Positions 47,140 through 61,500 of a stretch of DNA of 64,000 bases are shown here, piece by piece. Origin of the DNA: Porpolomopsis calyptriformis. Its lineage: Eukaryota > Basidiomycota > Agaricomycetes > Agaricales > Hygrophoraceae. The notes beneath the pieces are model-generated. The model was not told the DNA's origin, did not search any database, and saw only the letters and a list, made by a program, of their open reading frames with translations. Position 1 is the stretch's first letter. Each line of letters begins with the position of its first letter. Location of the stretch: contig OX621172.1 in assembly GCA_951640195.1 (NCBI GenBank), forward strand, positions 1,736,001 through 1,800,000. The letters are read 5' to 3'. A program made the position numbers and the translations under genes.

Positions 47140-48486
47140 ATGTCTTCCACATCCCAGCAGTTCTATACAGACCCATCTGGGTTTAACTACTCACGTTTCG
47201 GTCCTGATGGACCATGGACTCTCGTCGGACCCACCCCTTCTGCCCCCACCTCCCTGCCTCCCCTGCCTTCCTTCCAGGATGGGTTCCCCCCCCTCCCCAA
47301 TTACCTTTCCACGGCCCCCACCTTGTCCCAACCAACTGGTCGCAACGCTGAGAATGACCCGCCGATCCCTCAACATCTGGTAGACCTCACAGTTCCAGCC
47401 CGCAAGGTTGGAGGATCGCGTCGCCGTACTGGAAAGATGAACTCAAAGAAACGACCAGCCCCCCTCAAGAGGGAGGGGGTGATACTTGATCTGTCCATCT
47501 CTGGAGGGAAACGTCCGCGCGGCCGAACAAATGGCGCAGCGAACTACTCCGAGGAGGACATCAACTCCCTCCTTGACTTGGTCGAGAAGCACCTTCCAGT
47601 TGGTGCGCGAGGTTGGGCAGCTGTGTCGGAGGGGTATGAGGCATGGGCGATCGCTAATGATCGTCCTCGCCATTCTACCAGGTCACTCAATATCAAATAT
47701 AAACAAGTAAGTAATTAATTTCATTCATTTATTCACTATCTAATGGAACTTTGCCAGCTTGTCCGGATGGAAAAGCCCACTGGTGAGGGTGAATGCCCGC
47801 CTGAAATCGAGCGTGCGCATGCTATTGAGGCTGCCATACTCGAGAAGGCGGGTCTGATGGAGCTCGATGATGAAGACATCGCGCAGATATCCGACGTGGT
47901 CAAGATCAGCAGCAACGAGGATTTAGTCCCTGTCCACCGTGCCAAGCGCATCAAATGCGAGCCCGTCGAGGGATCGATCCCTCCCAAGATCTCACAGCGC
48001 CAGGCCAAGAATGCTGGGCAGAATCTGCTCCAGACGATCACCAACGTCCTCGATCCCACTGCCCACGCCGCGAGGCAAGTTGCTCGAGATGAGGAGCGCC
48101 TCACTCACTCATTCCAAACCACCCAGCTGCTCATGCTTACCACCCAAGTCCGGGATGCGCAGGCGACGATCGAGGTTCTACGAGATCGTCTCAGTCAGTC
48201 CGAGAGTGCGCGACTCATGGCTGAACGTCAACTCGATAGAGCAGAACTGCTCTCGATGCTGAAGACCCCAGCCAAGCGCCGACGGTACAACCGTGACGTC
48301 AGCTGGTCCCCCCCCTCTCCCTCTACCGCCTTCGTGAGGCGTAACCGCACGACACATACCACCGCCTCAAAGGCATGCCCCATCCCCACCCCCGATCCAA
48401 TCCCGGACACCCCTACCCCCCTCCCGGAAAGCCCTGACAGGCTGTCACGGACATCTTTTTCTTTTCTCTTAGTCATACTTGATTAG
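47140..48486 (+). CDS. SANT/Myb-like protein (DUF6818-type), C-terminus interrupted by G3
   Basis: Exon 1 is 47140-47706 and exon 2 starts at 47758 (GT-AG intron of 51 nt). The N-terminus is Pro-rich (MSSTSQQFYTDPSGFNYSRF), then a basic GGSRRRTGKMNSKKRP. The domain NYSEEDINSLLDLVEKHLPV, RGWAAVSEGYEAWA, RSLNIKYKQLVRMEKPTGEG and CPPEIERAHAIEAAI matches the SANT-like (DUF6818) type that is associated with transposons. A coiled coil (RDAQATIEVLRDRLSQSESA) and an Arg/Pro-rich tail follow. G3 inserted after codon ESPDR; the reading frame now runs 15 codons into the LTR (to 48486). Without G3 it would end seven residues later (PAAGPSNT, stop at 55152-55154). The insertion therefore replaces only the last few residues. 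It probably forms a two-gene element with the DDE transposase at 55540-56714. Confidence 0.75.
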
Positions 48487-48810
48487 TCTCTATTCCGTCT
48501 ATCCTTCCGTTTTACCATTCTATACATAGAGACTGATCACATGTACCTTCCTTTCGACTCTTCACGAGTCACATTCCGTTTCCGATATTCTTTTCGTGAC
48601 TCTTCACTAGTCACATTCCGGATTCCGCTTTGTAATCGTACATATGACTGACTCATGGCGACTCAGGTAGTTAGTATATAAAGCCTGATTTCTAGTCAGT
48701 AGGATAAGTTCGATTCCTAGTTAGCTCCCCCACTCTTTAGTCGAATTCCATTTCCTCCATCAGCCCCTCCAACGCGAGAAGTAAAACCCTTCGACTACCG
48801 AATCATAACA
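48443..48810 (+). repeat. G3 5' LTR with promoter and self-priming site
   Basis: The TATA box (tatataaag) is at 48675-48683. Thirty-one nt later begins aagttcgattc (48706-48716), the exact reverse complement of gaatcgaactt (48812-48822), one base inside the LTR end. Two copies of a cttca/cgagtcacattccg module (gactcttcacgagtcacattccg and gactcttcactagtcacattccg) lie upstream and look like paired regulatory repeats. Confidence 0.85.
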
Positions 48811-48985: not shown

Positions 48986-50404
48986 ATGTCTCAACAAGAG
49001 TACGAAGCCGATCAATCCGTTCCCGCACCAGGACCAAGTAACATCCCCTCTACCATTCAAGAAGAAGAAGAAGACGTCGTCCCATTTAACATGGAACAAG
49101 AGCTCAGAGATTTAAGAGCACAAATCGACCAGTTCCGCGGTTGGTACTATAACGAAGTCGACGTCAACGATGAGCTCCGAAAGGAACTGAAAGCTCTCAA
49201 AGAAAGTCGACGCGAAGAATCTGAACCAGCCACCCCTCCACGACGACGATCTGTACTTCGAGGACCTGGACTTTCCCCCTCGAATCCTTTCGTTTATCCC
49301 ACAAGAAGAACCCAATCCGTCCAACCTCTATCCCAACCAACCTTTCCCAGTCAACTACCCACCCAGACGACTGCTCCCCCCACACTTCCAGCCCCCACCA
49401 AAATCAAAATCGCCGATCCAACTGAGTATGATGGAACCTCCGAGAAGCTTGAAGATTTCATTCATCAATGTCGACTCAACTTTGTGGTCAAAGACTACAA
49501 CGACAAGCAGAAGATCATCTATATGCTCTCTTACCTCGGTGAAGGCAATCCACGGGCCTGGGGACGACTGTTCACAGAAGGAGTTGACAGGACGAGGAAT
49601 TTCGTATGGGACTACGCAACGTTTTTGGACGATTTCAGGGAAGCTTTCGGAAGGATCAACCCAGCGGCGAAAGCGCGGATCGAGCTAGAAAAAGTGAAGA
49701 TGACAGGAACGATAGAAGACTACAACCTTCGGTTCATGCAACACGCAGCAAGAACTGAGTACAACGAAACCGCTCTACTTCGGTTTTACAAAGCCGGACT
49801 CCCCCAGCCGATCCAAACGCGGATCTACTCGATGGACAATATGCCGTCGACTTTGCTGGACTGGACGACAAAAGCGGCCCAGTTCGAAGAACAGTACCAG
49901 GAACAACGAGCCGAACAAGCATTGTGGTCAAGTCGAGATCAAAAAGGAAAAAAGTCTGAAGCCAAACCGAGTCCACGAGGAAACCCTTCCCGCTCCACCA
50001 CCACCACCACTTCATCCCCGATCAAACAAGAATCGAGAGAAGCCTCTCTCAAGACAGCGAAACGAGACAACTCCTCCATCACTTGCTACAATTGTGGCAA
50101 AAAGGGACACTATGCCAACGAATGCCGAAGTCCACGTGCTGAAGACGTTCCGGCACGTCAAGAATCCTCAAACTCTACTCGAGGAAAAGGAGGAAATCGC
50201 GGTCGAGGCAAAGGACGGAATGTCCGAACGATCAATCGGGTCGATGTAGAAGAATCGGAGGCGCGGATAGAGGAAGTACCAGAGGACGACGAAAAGGAAA
50301 AAAGGATGGCAAAGGACGACTTGAAGGATATGGGAATCGCAAATTGGAACAAGGAGAGACGGGCTGCGCTAGCTCGAGCGTTAAAAGAGCAAAAGGATTT
50401 TTAG
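48986..50404 (+). CDS. G3 gag polyprotein
   Basis: The structural capsid protein is 472 aa and intact. An acidic N-terminus (MSQQEYEADQSVPAPGPSN) contains a coiled coil (about residues 35-75, ELRDLRAQIDQFRGWYYNEV). A basic Pro-rich linker follows, then the retrotransposon gag fold (about 135-300: KIADPTEYDGTSEKLEDFIH, IIYMLSYLGEGNPRAWGRLF, FREAFGRINPAAKARIEL). A CCHC zinc knuckle comes next (CYNCGKKGHYANEC, about residue 370), then an Arg/Gly-rich nucleic-acid-binding segment (GKGGNRGRGKGRN). It ends ALKEQKDF with TAG directly after a U5 run. Expression of pol needs -1 slippage at this point or reinitiation at the overlapping ATG at 50344. Confidence 0.95.
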   Translation: MSQQEYEADQSVPAPGPSNIPSTIQEEEEDVVPFNMEQELRDLRAQIDQFRGWYYNEVDVNDELRKELKALKESRREESEPATPPRRRSVLRGPGLSPSNPFVYPTRRTQSVQPLSQPTFPSQLPTQTTAPPTLPAPTKIKIADPTEYDGTSEKLEDFIHQCRLNFVVKDYNDKQKIIYMLSYLGEGNPRAWGRLFTEGVDRTRNFVWDYATFLDDFREAFGRINPAAKARIELEKVKMTGTIEDYNLRFMQHAARTEYNETALLRFYKAGLPQPIQTRIYSMDNMPSTLLDWTTKAAQFEEQYQEQRAEQALWSSRDQKGKKSEAKPSPRGNPSRSTTTTTSSPIKQESREASLKTAKRDNSSITCYNCGKKGHYANECRSPRAEDVPARQESSNSTRGKGGNRGRGKGRNVRTINRVDVEESEARIEEVPEDDEKEKRMAKDDLKDMGIANWNKERRAALARALKEQKDF

Positions 50405-53400
50405 TCCGGCCAAGTGCTAAAAGCCTGAGCACTTTGGCTGTGTCCCATGTATGTGTACCACCATCTATGAAAAGTTTTCGTTTTCTTGGCACACTTGAAC
50501 AGGGCAAAGGCGCTCTCGAATTCTATCTTTGGATCACGAGTGCCGACAATCTTCGACGAGTGGCTATCATAGCACTCATTGACTCTGGCGCCTCAGGGAA
50601 TTTTATTGACGAAGCATTCGTTCGTCAAATGGAGATATCGACCTATCCGTTGGATGAGGTTGTACCGGTACGAAACGCTGATGGTTCCGAGAACCGAGGA
50701 GGTCCCATCACGCACGACACAGACCTGTTTATCGAGGCACCAGATCTATCTTTCCGAGAACGAATCCGGTTGGAGGTCACCAACTTAGGAAAAAAGCAAC
50801 AGGTCATCCTCGGCTTCCCATGGCTCTTGCGACACAACCCCACCATCAATTGGACAAAAGGCACCTTAACCTTTGCGTCTGGTGACACGCTGTTCAGTAG
50901 TATGCGAGTCGGAGTGTTGCCCCCACAGGAAGAACTCTACGTCTTTGATTCGAGTCTGAAACATGACTCCTTTATCCGTTTGGTCGGAGTGGACCACTCC
51001 CGACCAGTTTCCATCGAGGAGGATATCAAATCCTTCATTCCCAGTCGTTATCACATTTTCTGGCGTGTTTTCCATACCGCAGAATTCGACAAACTTCCTC
51101 CTCGACGCTCCTTCGATCATGCGATCAACCTCTACCCGAACACCAAATTTCAAGTCGGAAAGCTCTATCCCCTTTCCCCCTATGAACAGGTGGAACTTAA
51201 TAAGTTTATTGACGAAAATCTCAGAACAGGTCGGATACGTCCATCGAAATCACCACAAGCTGCTCCTTTCTTCTTTGCAAAAAAAGCTGAAGAGATCAAT
51301 GCTAAAGGTCTCAATGCTGGTCTACGTCCCATCCAGGACTATCGCTACATCAACTCAAAGACCATTCCTGATCGTTACCCCCTTCCCCTTCTATCGGAAA
51401 TCCTCCAAGTACCGAAGCTTGCTACTGCTTCACTCTTTACAGTCATCGATATTCGATGGGGATTTAACAACATACGACTCAAGGAAGGTGACGAATGGAA
51501 AGCAGCTTTCATCACCAATCGAGGACTCTTCGAGCCGACCGTTATGTTCTTTGGACTACGGAACTCCCCAGCATCTTTCCAACGAATGATAGACGTTCTC
51601 TTTAAAACCGTTTTGGACTCTGGCTGTGTCCACATTTATATTGACGACATTCTCATTATGGGCGACACCCCCGAAGAAATCCGCCACTGGACTGATGAAA
51701 CCCTTAAACTCATGGAGAAGAATCAACTATCCGCCAAACCCGTCAAATGCCAAATGGAGAAGACCTCTGTTACATACCTTGGTACAATCATCAGCAAAGG
51801 TCAACTCGCCATCAATCCAAAGAAGGTAGACGCCATCATCAATTGGCCGACGCCCCAAAAGCTGCGAGACCTCCAATCCTTCCTTGGCACCACTAACTTC
51901 TGGCGTCGTTACATCAAAAGTTTCTCCTCAGTCGTTCGTCCCCTTTGTGGCCTTTTGCGGAAAGACCAACCTTGGGATTGGTCTCCCTTGTGTCAAAAAG
52001 CCTTTGAGCAACTCAAACATCTCGTCACTACAGCCCCTGTCCTTCTTACCCCACGGCCGGACCTTCCTTACCTCTTGGAGACTGATGCCTCAGATTTCGG
52101 TATTGGCGCGGTCTTGTCTCAGAAACACGACAACGGTTGGCACCCCGTTGGCTTTTTCTCAAAGTCTCTACTCCCTGCCGAATACAACTATCCTACCCAT
52201 GATCTGGAAATGCTTGCAATCGTCACTTCCCTCAAGTATTGGCGCTATCTTTTAGAGGGCGCAAGGGATACTGTGTTGATAAAAACGGACAATTTGGCGC
52301 TCAAGTATTTCATGCAGAACAGATCCCTTTCCAGACGACAAGCACGTTGGATGGAATTCTTAGGTAGATTCGACTTCAAAATCGAGTATTCCCCTGGAGT
52401 CAAAAACAAAGCCGATGGACTCTCCCGCCGACCCGACCACCGTCGTACAGAAAAAGAAGAACCAGAAGGCCAAGCCCTCCTCCCCCCCGAACGTTTCATC
52501 AATGCTATCATTTCTATGTCCGAACCTTCCTTTATGTCAAGACTTCGCTTTCCCGACTTCAACGAAATCCCAGAGGATATTCGCATCAAGTTATCCGATC
52601 CCTCTTCCGGCTACTCCTTCACTGACGGAATTGTGAGAGATGCAGGAGATCGTATTGTCGTGCCAGCAGACGTATTGCTACGCACAGAGATAATTCGATT
52701 GACCCACTCCCTGCCCCATGGAGGCCATCCCGGAATCGAGAAGACACGTGAGCTTGTGTTGCGGAACTACACCTGGAGTAGTGCTGCCCCTGACATCCGT
52801 GTATTCGTATCATCTTGTCCGACCTGCCAACAAGTCAAGCTTTATCCTTCGAAGCCTGCAGGTCTCCTAGAACCCATTCCCCCTTCGTCTCGACCTTGGG
52901 AAGAAATCACCGCCGATCTAATCGTGGAACTCCCCCAATCATCTGGCTACGATGCTGTCCTAGTCGTTGTCGACCGTTTTACCAAACGCGCTCACTTTAT
53001 TCCGACGACATCAAATATTTCTGCAGAAGGAGTCGCAAAACTCTTCAGGGACAATATATGGAAACACCACGGCTGGCCAAAGAAGATCATAACCGATCGA
53101 GGAACTCAGTTTGCTTCCAAATTTGCGAAGGCTCTCAATACTCATTTGAGAATCATCTCCGGTCTATCCACCGCTTATCATCCCCAAACTGATGGTCAAA
53201 CGGAACGCACCAATCAGGAACTTGAACAATACCTTCGTTTATATACAAACTTTATGCAAGACGATTGGTCCAACTGGCTATCCCCAGCTGAATTCGCTTA
53301 TAACAACCGACAGCACTCCTCGACGAAACACACTCCCTTTTATCTTGATACTGGTCAACATCCCTTCGTCCCATCTGTCCCTGCGACCCCTACTTCCAAC

Positions 53401-53964
53401 CCCGCAGCAAATGCCTTCCACGATCATCTCGCAGAAGCCCGTGAAGAAGCCACAAAAGCTCTAAACACAGCGGCCGAAACCATGAAACGCTTCGCAGATC
53501 GTAAACGGAAAGATACCCAACTCCAAATAGGTCAATTTGTTTATCTTGATACTCGTAACTTAAAAACAGGTCGTCCAACCCTCAAACTTGATGTCCGACG
53601 CACTGGACCGTTCAAAGTTCTAGAGAAAATCGGAAAAGTCTCTTATCGCCTGGCCCTCCCCTTATCATGGAAAATACACAACGTCTTTCATGTTTCACTC
53701 CTGAGACCCGCTAACATTAATTCCGATCTCCATCCAGAGGAAGTAGATGATAATCTCCGTCCACCTCCGGATATCATTCAAGAGAAAGAAGAATATGAGG
53801 TCGAACAAATTCTCCAACATCACGGGTCCACCCGACGTCGTACGTATTTGGTCAAATGGGTCGGCTATCCCATTGAAGAAGCAACCTGGGAACCGAAGAA
53901 GAACCTTCTCCATGCGAAAGAACGAATTCTAGAATACGAACAATCAATTCAAACGGCGACCTAA
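50344..53964 (+). CDS. G3 pol polyprotein (protease-RT-RNase H-integrase-chromodomain)
   Basis: The frame is 1206 codons and uninterrupted; it overlaps gag by 61 nt in the -1 frame. Domains by residue are aspartic protease (ALIDSGASGNFID, about 76), RT (GLRPIQDYRYINSKT; catalytic YIDDILIMG, about 431), RNase H (ETDASDFGIGAVLS, about 578), integrase zinc domain (GGHPGIEKTRELVLRNYTW ... CPTCQQ, about 790-830), integrase core with its catalytic acids (ADLIVELP, IITDRGTQF, HPQTDGQTERTNQELEQ, about 858-960), and chromodomain (EYEVEQIL ... YLVKWVGYPIEEATWEP, about 1150-1187). The chromodomain keeps the methyl-lysine cage aromatics (Tyr of EYEVE, Trp and Tyr of VKWVGY). No catalytic residue that I can check is missing. 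Confidence 0.97.
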   Translation: MEQGETGCASSSVKRAKGFLVRPSAKSLSTLAVSHVCVPPSMKSFRFLGTLEQGKGALEFYLWITSADNLRRVAIIALIDSGASGNFIDEAFVRQMEISTYPLDEVVPVRNADGSENRGGPITHDTDLFIEAPDLSFRERIRLEVTNLGKKQQVILGFPWLLRHNPTINWTKGTLTFASGDTLFSSMRVGVLPPQEELYVFDSSLKHDSFIRLVGVDHSRPVSIEEDIKSFIPSRYHIFWRVFHTAEFDKLPPRRSFDHAINLYPNTKFQVGKLYPLSPYEQVELNKFIDENLRTGRIRPSKSPQAAPFFFAKKAEEINAKGLNAGLRPIQDYRYINSKTIPDRYPLPLLSEILQVPKLATASLFTVIDIRWGFNNIRLKEGDEWKAAFITNRGLFEPTVMFFGLRNSPASFQRMIDVLFKTVLDSGCVHIYIDDILIMGDTPEEIRHWTDETLKLMEKNQLSAKPVKCQMEKTSVTYLGTIISKGQLAINPKKVDAIINWPTPQKLRDLQSFLGTTNFWRRYIKSFSSVVRPLCGLLRKDQPWDWSPLCQKAFEQLKHLVTTAPVLLTPRPDLPYLLETDASDFGIGAVLSQKHDNGWHPVGFFSKSLLPAEYNYPTHDLEMLAIVTSLKYWRYLLEGARDTVLIKTDNLALKYFMQNRSLSRRQARWMEFLGRFDFKIEYSPGVKNKADGLSRRPDHRRTEKEEPEGQALLPPERFINAIISMSEPSFMSRLRFPDFNEIPEDIRIKLSDPSSGYSFTDGIVRDAGDRIVVPADVLLRTEIIRLTHSLPHGGHPGIEKTRELVLRNYTWSSAAPDIRVFVSSCPTCQQVKLYPSKPAGLLEPIPPSSRPWEEITADLIVELPQSSGYDAVLVVVDRFTKRAHFIPTTSNISAEGVAKLFRDNIWKHHGWPKKIITDRGTQFASKFAKALNTHLRIISGLSTAYHPQTDGQTERTNQELEQYLRLYTNFMQDDWSNWLSPAEFAYNNRQHSSTKHTPFYLDTGQHPFVPSVPATPTSNPAANAFHDHLAEAREEATKALNTAAETMKRFADRKRKDTQLQIGQFVYLDTRNLKTGRPTLKLDVRRTGPFKVLEKIGKVSYRLALPLSWKIHNVFHVSLLRPANINSDLHPEEVDDNLRPPPDIIQEKEEYEVEQILQHHGSTRRRTYLVKWVGYPIEEATWEPKKNLLHAKERILEYEQSIQTAT

Positions 53965-54084
53965 TTACTCTTTCACGGTATCAACTCCCCTCGTTTATAT
54001 TTTCACTTTTGTCACCTTTTCCAAACTCCGACTCTTCCTTATAATCTCTTTCGTTTCCATCTTTCTCAAGAAATCGATCTCACT

Positions 54085-54675
54085 ATGCCCGCCGAACGCT
54101 CGCACCAAACTGCCCGCAAGTCTACTGGTGGTCGTCCACCCCGCGCTCCTCACATGTCCACTGGAGGGCAACCCCCTCGTCGCGCTCCCCCTCCGCTCGC
54201 TTCCACCTCCTCCGCTTACGGTGAAGCCGAGCTCGCCGGACAACTCGCCGGACAACTCTAGCAGCACAACCGTCGCGCACGAAATCGGGATCTTCCCATA
54301 TGGCCAGAGGAAATCGTCGCTCCACCCATCCCACCCGAGCAGATCATCGAGTCACTACAGAGGGATATCGATTACTACAAGAACGAGATCGCGAGACTGA
54401 ACGAAGAGTTGTACAACCAAGGAATGAGTTTGGACGGGAAGAGAAGAGCGAGCGAGTACTGGCGAGAGCAGGCCAAACACTGGGAGGCAAAGTACGAGGA
54501 AGTCACAAAGGTACTTCCCCATCTTGATTCTCCAGTTCCCCCTGTTTTCCCGGGTCCGCTCATCGTTCCCCCCGGTTCGTCGTCGAACCCCATCACCATC
54601 CCCGATGACGACGACATTTCCCCGGTCGACATTATTTCCCTGTCGACCATCGCCTCCAACAAGGACTCAACCTAG
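54085..54675 (+). CDS. G3 ORF3: histone H3 tail mimic, coiled coil, acidic tail (one TAG)
   Basis: The frame starts at the ATG at 54085, 120 nt after the pol stop, and ends TAG at 54675, with one in-frame TAG at 54259 (CTC TAG CAG CAC, likely an old CAG). Residues 8-16 (QTARKSTGG) are identical to histone H3 residues 5-13, and the next four (RPPR against KAPR) differ at two. Lys12 therefore corresponds to H3 Lys9. A second STGGQPPRRAPP follows at residue 28. After the TAG come a basic HNRRARNRD, PPIPPEQIIESL, a coiled coil (IDYYKNEIARLNEELYNQGM, REQAKHWEAKYEEVTKV) and an acidic tail (NPITIPDDDDISPVDIISLS) that looks like a SUMO-interaction motif. There is no membrane segment or signal, so it is not env. 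G1 has the same ORF in decayed form. Whether the TAG is read through, spliced around or inactivating cannot be decided here. Confidence 0.75.
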
Positions 54676-54755: not shown

Positions 54756-55123
54756 TGTCACGGACATCTTTTTCTTTTCTCTTAGTCATACTTGATTAGT
54801 CTCTATTCCGTCTATCCTTCCGTTTTACCATTCTATACATAGAGACTGATCACATGTACCTTCCTTTCGACTCTTCACGAGTCACATTCCGTTTCCGATA
54901 TTCTTTTCGTGACTCTTCACTAGTCACATTCCGGATTCCGCTTTGTAATCGTACATATGACTGACTCATGGCGACTCAGGTAGTTAGTATATAAAGCCTG
55001 ATTTCTAGTCAGTAGGATAAGTTCGATTCCTAGTTAGCTCCCCCACTCTTTAGTCGAATTCCATTTCCTCCATCAGCCCCTCCAACGCGAGAAGTAAAAC
55101 CCTTCGACTACCGAATCATAACA
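54756..55123 (+). repeat. G3 3' LTR
   Basis: This 368-bp LTR appears identical to the 5' LTR. It is preceded by ttcctttTAGTGTGGGTGTA, a weak purine/GT-rich tract. The target duplication CAGGC follows, and then the last codons of the SANT gene (cccgccgctgggcc... to TAG at 55152-55154). Confidence 0.95.
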
Positions 55124-55154
55124 CAGGCCCGCCGCTGGGCCTTCCAACACATAG

Positions 55155-58594: not shown

Positions 58595-61500
58595 ATGAGC
58601 CCTGGTTCACCAATGTCTGATTCTATACTCACCTCCAATTCCCAATCCTTGGTTATTCCAAAACTTCGAGATGATGGCTCCAACTGGGCAGATTATGAGC
58701 CGAGGGCTATGCGAGCGATGGGCTCAAAAGGCCTCGTACCCCACTTGAATGGACGATCCAAATGGCCAGTGGATCTGGTCGAGCTTAATAGTGTCCCCCA
58801 GTACAATGGCAAAGATGCCACTGATGAACAAATCGAAACTAGAGAGAAGAAAATGCTTGACTTTGATCAGCGCGAGTATCTTGCGCAACATCTACTCCTC
58901 TCGACAGTCTCACCTTGTTTGTCACAAAAGATCATGAAGCTTACCACTGCCAAGGACATGTGGGATATGGTTAAAGCAGATGCGACCACAAAAAGTGTTC
59001 TTCACCAGGTCGATATGCTCAATGCGCTACAGAACATGAGATGCGCATCGTCTCCGGACCCGAAGATACATCTTGCTGAGCTGAAGGCTCATCTGGCTAA
59101 GATGACAGAGCGGGTGGAGTATTTGAGGGTGACTAGCTCACCTGTTTCCGACCCGATGCAGGTCAATATAATGATTGCGTCGATGCCAGAGGTTTACCGT
59201 GCCACTGTGCAGACGGTCGAAACCACTATGAAGGTTACTGGAAAGTCTATCCAGCCTGATGACCTAGTGTCAATTTTCATCCAGGAAGCGGAACACCGCT
59301 TGATTGCCAGTGGGCAAGAAAGGGCTGCTGAGGCGGCGATGTTTGCCTCGCAAGGTTCCCGAGGATCTGGATCGAAACGCACAGAAAAGAAGTCCGCAAC
59401 AACTAAAACTTGCTATAACTGCCAAAAGGTCGGTCACCTGAAGGCAACGTGTTATGCCCCAGGAGGCAGCATGGAGGGGCAAGGTCCCCATCAACTGAAG
59501 GCGAAAAAGAAACTTGAGGCGGCTAATGTAACGAAAGTATCAGAAAACGATGACTTGTTCGCATTCACATGCACCTCGGACTTTAAAGCCATCGTATCTA
59601 ACCTCGGGTTGGATGGATTGGGTCGCGATACGATCCTCGATAGTGGCGCCAGTCGTCACTTTTGCCCGGATAGGGCAAGGTTTGAAAACTACGTACCAAT
59701 TGACCGCGAAATCAAAACTGCCGATGGAAGGACGTTTAAGGCAATCGGAACTGGAGACGTAAGGATTGAGCTACCTAACGGCAGTTCATCATCGTCAGTG
59801 ATGTTGAAGGACTGTGTGTACGCACTGGATTTAGCCTTCACACTTGTTTCTGTCAGCCGACTAGCTCAAGCTGCCAAGTCTGTGGTCTTCGGAAAAGACC
59901 ACGCAATTGTTACTCACCCTCGTGGACATGTGATAGCAAAGATCCCACGATTCCAAGGGTTATATAGGATTACACCTGGAACTGAAACCCGGTGTGATCA
60001 TGTGAATGCCGTGACTACCAAGATGACACTGATGGAGGCCCACCGGAAGTTGGGCCATATTGCTGTGTCGACAGTAAAGCGTATGGTATCGAACGGAATG
60101 ATATTGGGTATCGAGATTGACCCATTGTCCAAGGAAGAATTTTGTGAGCCATGCGTAAAGGCAAAGGCAGCACGAAAACCATTTCCAAAAGAGTCACTTA
60201 CCCGAGCAACACAATATGGTGAACGAGTCCATTGGGATCTCTGGGGACCTGCTTCGACATCTAGCCTAGGTGGGAAGCACTGTGCTGCCTTCCGAAAAGA
60301 TGACTACTCCCGTGAGACACAAGTCTACTTCCTCACAAAGAAAAGTGAAACTCTCGATGCCTACAAGAAGGACGAGGCAGCTATTAATACTCAACAGAAT
60401 GGTGCCCAGATCAAATACCTCCGGTGTGATCGAGGGGGAGAATTCCTGAGTAATGACTTCGATCACCACCTCAGTATGAAAGGGACAAAACGTGAACTTA
60501 CTGTCTATGACTCTCCTCAACAGGATGGAGTCTCTGAACATGGTATGCGTACCCATGCTGAACACGCCCGTGCCCTCCTTTTTGCGTCGGGATTACCGCA
60601 ATCCCTTTGGGCCGAAGCTATGCACTACTGTGTGTGGCTAGAGAACCGGACTGAAACCTGAGCACTGAATGGAAAGACCCCATATGAGATGGTACGTGAC
60701 CGGAAACCATTTCTGGGTGGGATCCATGAGTTTGGAGCTGCCGCATATGTGAAAGACTTGCATGCTGGAAAGCTTGATGAACGTGCACGGAAAGCCCGCT
60801 TTGTCAGATACGATTCCGAGAGCAAAGGGTTCCGGATTTACTGGCCTGATAAGCGAACCATCAGTATTGAACGGGATGTTGTGTTCAACCCGGAAGACCT
60901 ACATCTGCTTCAGGGTGAAGGTATTATCATCCCTGAAGATACCCTGGATGAAGGGGAGAAGAATAAAGTCATCCAGCACTATCCCGATGAACCTAGACAC
61001 CTACCCCCCAATTCCGAAGTTGTTCCGGAAACTCCGAAAATTCCGGAAACCCGGAGACTTAACCCGGAAATCCCGGAAATCCCGGAATTGGCACCTACCT
61101 TTGGACGCGGAATGCGTACACGTTTACCCCCGGGATCTTACCGGGATATGACAAGGGGTGTTTATGAACCTGCTGCCCTAGCATATGCTGAGGCATTCAT
61201 CTGTGATCTCGGTCTGGAGAGTGGTGATGAACCAGGGGGAGTAATCCCGCTCAACTTCAATTCCGATGATGAAACCCTTGACCCGCTTTATGCGATAGCG
61301 GGATCCATGGGCTCGGAACCATGCTCAATGACTGAAGCACTCGAGGGGCCACATGGAAAGGCATGGGATGCTGCTCTGAAATATGAGATAGGTCAACTCC
61401 AGAAACTCCGGACTTGGGAGATTGTCGACCTACCCCCTGGAAAACCCGTAATCCCATGTTCCGAAGTATTGAAGGAGAAACGGAATGCGGATGACGTTGT

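Follow-up and report, generated by a model that had tools for sequence, protein, structure and literature searches.

A histone H3 tail-like motif under purifying selection in the accessory protein of a chromodomain Ty3/gypsy retrotransposon of Porpolomopsis calyptriformis

Histone mimics and accessory genes of mobile elements

Short motifs resembling the tail of histone H3 have been described in several viral proteins, including influenza NS1 (ARSK), adenovirus protein VII (AKKRS) and SARS-CoV-2 ORF8 (ARKS) (PMC10208167), the last of which is disputed on the grounds that the protein resides in the endoplasmic reticulum and, it is argued, does not enter the nucleus (PMC10833455). Among the retrotransposons, MAGGY has a chromodomain for which binding to H3K9me2/3 has been reported (PMC3350952). 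Accessory ORFs or domains beyond gag-pol have been reported in elements of bdelloid rotifers (PMC5408684), and an m6A demethylase domain in Ty3/gypsy elements of orchids (PMC9289625).

The window analysed here, a stretch of 64,000 nucleotides, contains a Ty3/gypsy element with a third reading frame (ORF3), whose N-terminus incorporates nine residues of the H3 tail. The likeness to the viral mimics lies in a short H3-like motif in the protein of a parasite (PMC10208167). However, the viral motifs comprise four to six residues and one is disputed, while that of ORF3 is exact over nine, with an additional R at the place of H3 K14 and PR at those of residues 16-17. Furthermore, ORF3 is present in dozens of genomic copies, so that, unlike in the viral cases, selection on the mimic can be measured directly. 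The element shares with the chromoviruses MAGGY, Tcn1 and Tf1 the gag-pol layout and an integrase C-terminal chromodomain with a group I cage (PMC3350952), but differs in its extra post-pol ORF with an H3K9-like peptide. An accessory ORF or domain is likewise common to the bdelloid rotifer (PMC5408684) and orchid (PMC9289625) elements, with no histone-tail mimic apparent in the consulted parts of these reports. VANC of Arabidopsis VANDAL provides a parallel as a transposon protein opposing host silencing (PMC10398659), although VANC proteins are sequence-specific, while ORF3 would offer a histone-tail ligand or decoy. Among the open-licence PMC matches listed on histone mimicry and transposons, no transposable element carrying a mimic of the H3 tail could be distinguished by title and start of abstract. 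If the interpretation below is correct, the element may turn the heterochromatin mark of its host against that host or use the mark as a landing guide, and may pose as the tag with which the host silences it.

The retrotransposon and its third reading frame

The element of the window is a chromodomain Ty3/gypsy retrotransposon on the basis of its LTRs, gag and pol. Its features, given by position in the window, are as follows.

48438..48442, no strand: left target-site duplication, CAGGC (direct reading)
48443..48810, + strand: 5' LTR of 368 bp, starting TGTCACGG and ending ATAACA, 100% identical to the 3' LTR (self-BLAST)
48986..50404, + strand: gag, comprising a Ty3 capsid-like domain and CCHC zinc knuckle (Pfam)
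50344..53964, + strand: pol, with protease, RT, RNase H, integrase, SH3_Tf2-1 and chromodomain (Pfam)
53794..53943, + strand: integrase chromodomain, Pol residues 1151-1200, cage residues Y, W and Y (Pfam Chromo)
54040..54044, + strand: TATAA, 45 nt before the ORF3 ATG, a possible internal promoter
54085..54675, + strand: ORF3 frame, with one stop codon in the window copy (54259-54261) beside a 12-nt tandem duplication
54106..54132, + strand: QTARKSTGG, putative histone H3 tail mimic, ORF3 residues 8-16 corresponding to H3 residues 5-13 and Lys12 to H3 Lys9
54157..54180, + strand: second partial repeat, STGGQPPR, ORF3 residues 25-32
54334..54513, + strand: predicted coiled-coil-like helix, spanning residues 80-139 in the 192-aa form (AlphaFold2)
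54756..55123, + strand: 3' LTR of 368 bp (self-BLAST)
55124..55128, no strand: right target-site duplication, CAGGC (direct reading)

The identity of the two LTRs indicates that the element is young. It was inserted near the end of an ORF at 47743-48486 (overlap at window 48438-48486), the last residues of which are thus LTR-derived. In pol, RT and RNase H precede the integrase and the chromodomain is C-terminal (Pfam), with ORF3 following pol from an ATG at 54085. Pol relatives with up to 58% identity occur in public contigs (jgi, ena), Lyophyllum shimeji being the one named organism among those listed (43% identity). As the preliminary description had stated, the integrase ends in a chromodomain with an intact aromatic cage; the group I residues Y/W/Y are retained in 50/51 copies, and the best sequence matches in the PDB are Oxpecker, CBX1/HP1 and CDYL (CDY-type). 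Potential host partners were sought in the same genome (33.5 Mb; 17 contigs). A pre-SET gene is present, with SET-like and post-SET-like pieces downstream as read by eye, and appears to be of the SUV39/Clr4 type. The chromo-shadow family gave no match in the genome at the default threshold, at which the control was also silent; a single weak match (E 1.21) is HP1-like by eye, although Pfam did not confirm either of two pieces of it.

Translation of the window ORF3 from its ATG yields MPAERSHQTARKSTGGRPPRAPHMSTGGQPPRRAPPPLASTSSAYGEAELAGQLAGQL, followed by a TAG at 54259-54261, and the N-terminus of ORF3 reads MPAERSHQTARKSTGGRPPR... The frame was previously described as an ORF of 58 amino acids. 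It continues past the stop to 54675, however, and comprises about 192 amino acids in most copies: 192 or 196 are open in 35/40 of the first copies, and 54/73 of the copies compared are free of internal stops. What had been described was thus the head of a larger protein. The TATAA lies 45-49 nt upstream of the ORF3 ATG in 51/52 copies, within the best-conserved part of the 130 nt preceding the gene, and this position and conservation suggest an internal promoter for ORF3. AlphaFold2 modelling of one 192-aa copy (mean pLDDT 63.9) predicted a helix-free, low-confidence tail (residues 1-44), a weak helix (residues 45-62), a confident helix (residues 80-139; block pLDDT 78-97, with four of six blocks above 90) and a low-confidence C-terminal end. 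ORF3 probably consists of a disordered N-terminal tail followed by a long helix, with an acidic tail at its end. The motif is situated within the low-confidence, helix-free part of the model, where it would be accessible.

Distribution and conservation of the motif

Translation, together with the H3 genes of the host itself, confirmed that residues 8-16 of ORF3 are identical to H3 residues 5-13, and the second STGGQPPR that had been noted was likewise found at residues 25-32. A degenerate ARKSTGG pattern was matched at 70 sites in the 33.5-Mb genome, as opposed to two for a reversed control pattern. Three of these sites belong to H3 genes, and the remaining 67 all fall inside ORF3 matches, so that the motif occurs beyond chance. 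A protein search of the genome with ORF3 gave 132 matches; 99 stretches were assigned to the motif-family ORF3, of which 90 are at least 540 nt long. Seventy-eight copies were read, 75 of these being in register and 73 compared, with eleven more, mostly old, left out. The exact 9-mer is retained in 64/78 copies read and in 61/73 of the compared set. Five residues (Q8, T9, K12, S13 and T14) are invariant in the 75 in-register copies, among which the codons of T9, K12, S13 and T14 differ synonymously, while Ala10 (74/75), Gly15 (74/75) and Gly16 (73/75) are nearly so. Arg11 is retained in 63/75, the other twelve copies encoding His or Cys, as would be produced by CpG decay of a CGC codon. Arginines elsewhere in the tail are also replaced (R17 in 14/75, R20 in 24/75 and R32 in 25/75). 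Lysine is absent from the counterparts of H3 K14 and K18, and Lys12 is the only lysine of residues 1-70 in 69/73 copies, and of residues 1-88 in 44/73. Decayed forms of the motif occur in old copies, for example QTTCKSTGG (L107) and QTTHKSTGG (L108). Protein searches for ORF3 relatives beyond this genome, with one ORF3 and with thirteen aligned ORF3s, gave no match, nor did a scan of viral contigs with Pol and the degenerate motif, which may leave out records near the genome itself.

Selection was evaluated against a replacement expectation that was calculated over five mutation classes from the synonymous sites, using 36 disjoint near pairs and 27 distant stop-free pairs. In the motif, 9.0 replacement changes were observed against 52.3 expected among the near pairs (ratio 0.17), and 8.0 against 129.5 among the distant pairs (0.06). 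Outside the CpG-related changes these values were 1.5 against 30.2 and 1.5 against 94.0, respectively. Among 181 nine-codon windows, the motif ranked first (lowest) for near and fifth for distant pairs in non-CpG changes, and sixth and ninth, respectively, when all changes were considered. Over all pairs of the 73 copies, dN/dS amounted to 0.049 in codons 8-16, compared with 0.070 in the coil and 0.165 across codons 2-190. A simpler scheme gave 22 synonymous changes in the motif, near the expected 26.8, indicating that the constraint acts on the protein. QTARKSTGG is thus under strong purifying selection at the amino acid level across the 73 copies. According to the preliminary description, conservation no better than neutral would mark the motif as chance; codons 8-16 are instead under constraint in many copies. 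In the first selection test, Arg11 changed at about the neutral rate among the near pairs (7.0 changes versus 7.7 expected); in the five-class test, CpG-related changes across the whole motif were constrained among the distant pairs (6.5 versus 35.5).

Codons 17-24 initially appeared to be neutral (ratio 1.12), an artefact of reversed CpG changes being counted in non-CpG classes. With five classes, the ratios for these codons were 0.98 (near) and 0.42 (distant) for all changes, and 0.37 and 0.06, respectively, for non-CpG changes. As the latter are constrained, the motif does not represent an isolated island; it is among the most constrained stretches of ORF3, with other parts being equally so.

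Origin and possible function of the motif

An ORF3 between pol and LTR is also encoded by a sister family, the Pol of which is 62-66% identical among the matches listed. The one copy read (L113 223-960; 245 aa; MPATRSPSPQVAIRRAGR...) has a different basic N-terminal tail and no H3 motif, and there are at least 150 matches to this ORF3 in the genome. Its coil is weakly similar to that of the motif family (26% over 80 aa; E 0.005 in a single comparison), it carries a PDDDDI run, and its MPAxRS start and STSS run are both shared with the motif-family ORF3. A more distant coil-bearing ORF (L105) similarly lacks the motif. The retention of a sister ORF3 without the motif indicates that the core function of ORF3 is independent of it, and the two motif-less coil ORFs suggest that ORF3 is probably an accessory gene older than the motif, the H3 tail being seen in one family only. 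As MPAxRS and STSS are present in the motif-less sister, the sequence context of the motif is probably also older than the motif itself.

This bears on the proposal in the preliminary description that the motif and the upstream gctcgcaccaa were captured from the start of an H3 gene with the loss of four nucleotides. The H3-like upstream sequence is not general: codon 6 is TCG in only 13/75 copies, with TCA in 36/75 and TCT in 24/75, and thus differs from TCG in 62/75. The motif-less sister, furthermore, also begins MPAxRS, and the four-nucleotide scenario was therefore rejected. The shifted upstream H3 match extends to 9/11 nt in 55/73 copies; of 5705 11-mers in the window element, none reaches exactly nine identities, and the one with ten was taken as the site itself. 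When the 27 motif bases of the 61 exact copies were aligned with the three host H3 genes, mean identities under host codon usage were 23.2 for H3a (null 20.3; P 0.026), 21.6 for H3b (P 0.09, with the best single copy reaching 25 at P 0.001) and 21.0 for H3c (P 0.50). With the codon usage of the element itself, the averages gave P values of 0.028, 0.34 and 0.55, respectively. The codon-level likeness of the motif to the host H3 genes is thus at most mildly above expectation, and a shorter patch may have been captured from an H3 gene or the motif may have arisen by convergence. An extension of the second repeat to H3 residue 26 (LASTSSA versus LAAKSSA in the host) was also considered, with shuffle tests favourable for two of the three H3 genes (0, 0 and 5 of 2000 over the entire region; 47, 40 and 1130 of 2000 beyond STGGQPPRR), but was dropped because the sister ORF3 has STSS at the corresponding place. 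The host H3 genes (L082, and L083 and L084 in contigs C5 and C2, respectively) share an intron directly after STGG; two of the three have an unusual tail, KQLAAKSSA followed by GRK or ARK, while the third reads KQLATKAARK.

What stands of the earlier proposal is an H3K9-tail mimic in ORF3, conserved and carried by a chromodomain element, while its capture by a four-nucleotide loss does not. On sequence evidence, the motif is an H3K9-tail mimic maintained by selection within an accessory protein that probably predates it. ORF3 would be an accessory protein of the element, presumably expressed, with the coiled coil as its older core, the disordered N-terminus of which turned into an H3K9-tail mimic in the motif family. 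An oligomer of ORF3, as the coil suggests, would display several copies of QTARKSTGG and serve as a multivalent ligand or substrate of the H3K9 pathway: the SUV39-type enzyme of the host would bind it or methylate its Lys12, and HP1-type chromodomains, perhaps including that of the integrase of the element itself, would read it. Such an interaction could draw these factors off the chromatin of the element as a decoy, tether the integration complex, or both. We assign a probability of about 0.55 to the ORF3 tail being a multivalent H3K9-pathway ligand or substrate, with the partner and benefit conjectural. This reading is based on the exact nine-residue identity, the invariant Q8, T9, K12, S13 and T14, the selection on the motif, Lys12 as the sole lysine of the N-terminal region in most copies, the predicted tail and helix, the HP1-type chromodomain of the element, a type reported to bind H3K9me2/3 in MAGGY, and the pre-SET gene and weak HP1-like candidate of the host. 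H3 Arg8, the equivalent of ORF3 Arg11, is important for SUV39/G9a enzymes, and the near-neutral change of Arg11 and its loss in 12/75 copies count against this reading. So do the equal constraint on other stretches of ORF3, the decay of the motif in older copies, the sister ORF3 that lacks it, and the failure of the collections searched to yield a relative from outside this genome. More tentatively, a single element may combine a reader of H3K9 methylation with an H3K9-tail ligand, such that methylated ORF3 oligomers would gather integrase and HP1, steer or shield integration complexes and blunt silencing.

Four other explanations were weighed against the H3K9 pathway. The H3-like tail could be a nuclear-import or chaperone signal, engaging an H3 importin or H3-H4 chaperone on behalf of ORF3 or virus-like particles. 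The tail is basic, N-terminal and disordered-looking, as such a signal might be, and importins recognising the H3 tail are known; these bind basic stretches rather than the exact QTARKST sequence, however, and neither K14 nor K18 of H3 is retained as lysine in ORF3. Arginine is moreover the most variable residue while Q, T, K, S, T and G are kept, although CpG decay alone makes arginine codons vary. An import signal is therefore considered unlikely. A comparably low probability is given to a motif for another H3 reader or writer, either Ser10/Thr11 kinases with 14-3-3 or a GCN5-type acetyltransferase. It would account for S13 and T14 (H3 S10 and T11) being as invariant as K12 (75/75), and KAT2A has been reported to target the viral ARKS (PMC10208167), although this has been disputed (PMC10833455); on the other side, the element itself encodes a reader of the H3K9me type.

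Somewhat less probable again is that the conservation has no relation to H3, the tail functioning in nucleic-acid binding or particle assembly and matching H3 by accident. Purifying selection does cover the whole of ORF3, and the basic tail of the sister ORF3 differs, but accident is a very improbable source of an exact nine-residue match around Lys9, and outside the H3 genes the ARKSTGG pattern is confined to ORF3 matches. Chance, or decaying functionless sequence in one copy, could fit the window copy alone with its internal stop, but is refuted for the family by the exact motif in 61/73 copies, the absence of internal stops in 54/73 and the selection results.

Several further features were observed. 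At the C-terminus of ORF3 (window 54580-54615), the sequence SSNPITIPDDDD is largely conserved among twelve near ORF3s and, by its resemblance to the consensus, is a candidate SUMO-interacting motif. A fragment of the window element (pol end, ORF3 and LTR start; 77.8% identity) occurs in L052 (1030-2229; contig C1), where it adjoins an integrase-like ORF, identified by eye, of another gypsy-like sequence, and a distant coiled-coil ORF lacking the motif lies about 1.37 kb beyond it. The arrangement appears to represent a composite element which has multiplied in the genome, with further copies read in C4 (L073) and C11 (L110) and others placed in C5 and C9 by search coordinates only. In the divergent composite copies L052, L073 and L110 (77-78% identity) QTARKSTGGRPPR is exact, while the second repeat is altered to STERQPLH. 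Elsewhere in the window, an ORF at 58595-60661 encodes a zinc knuckle and an integrase-like region and, judged by eye from its translation, resembles a Ty1/copia polyprotein.
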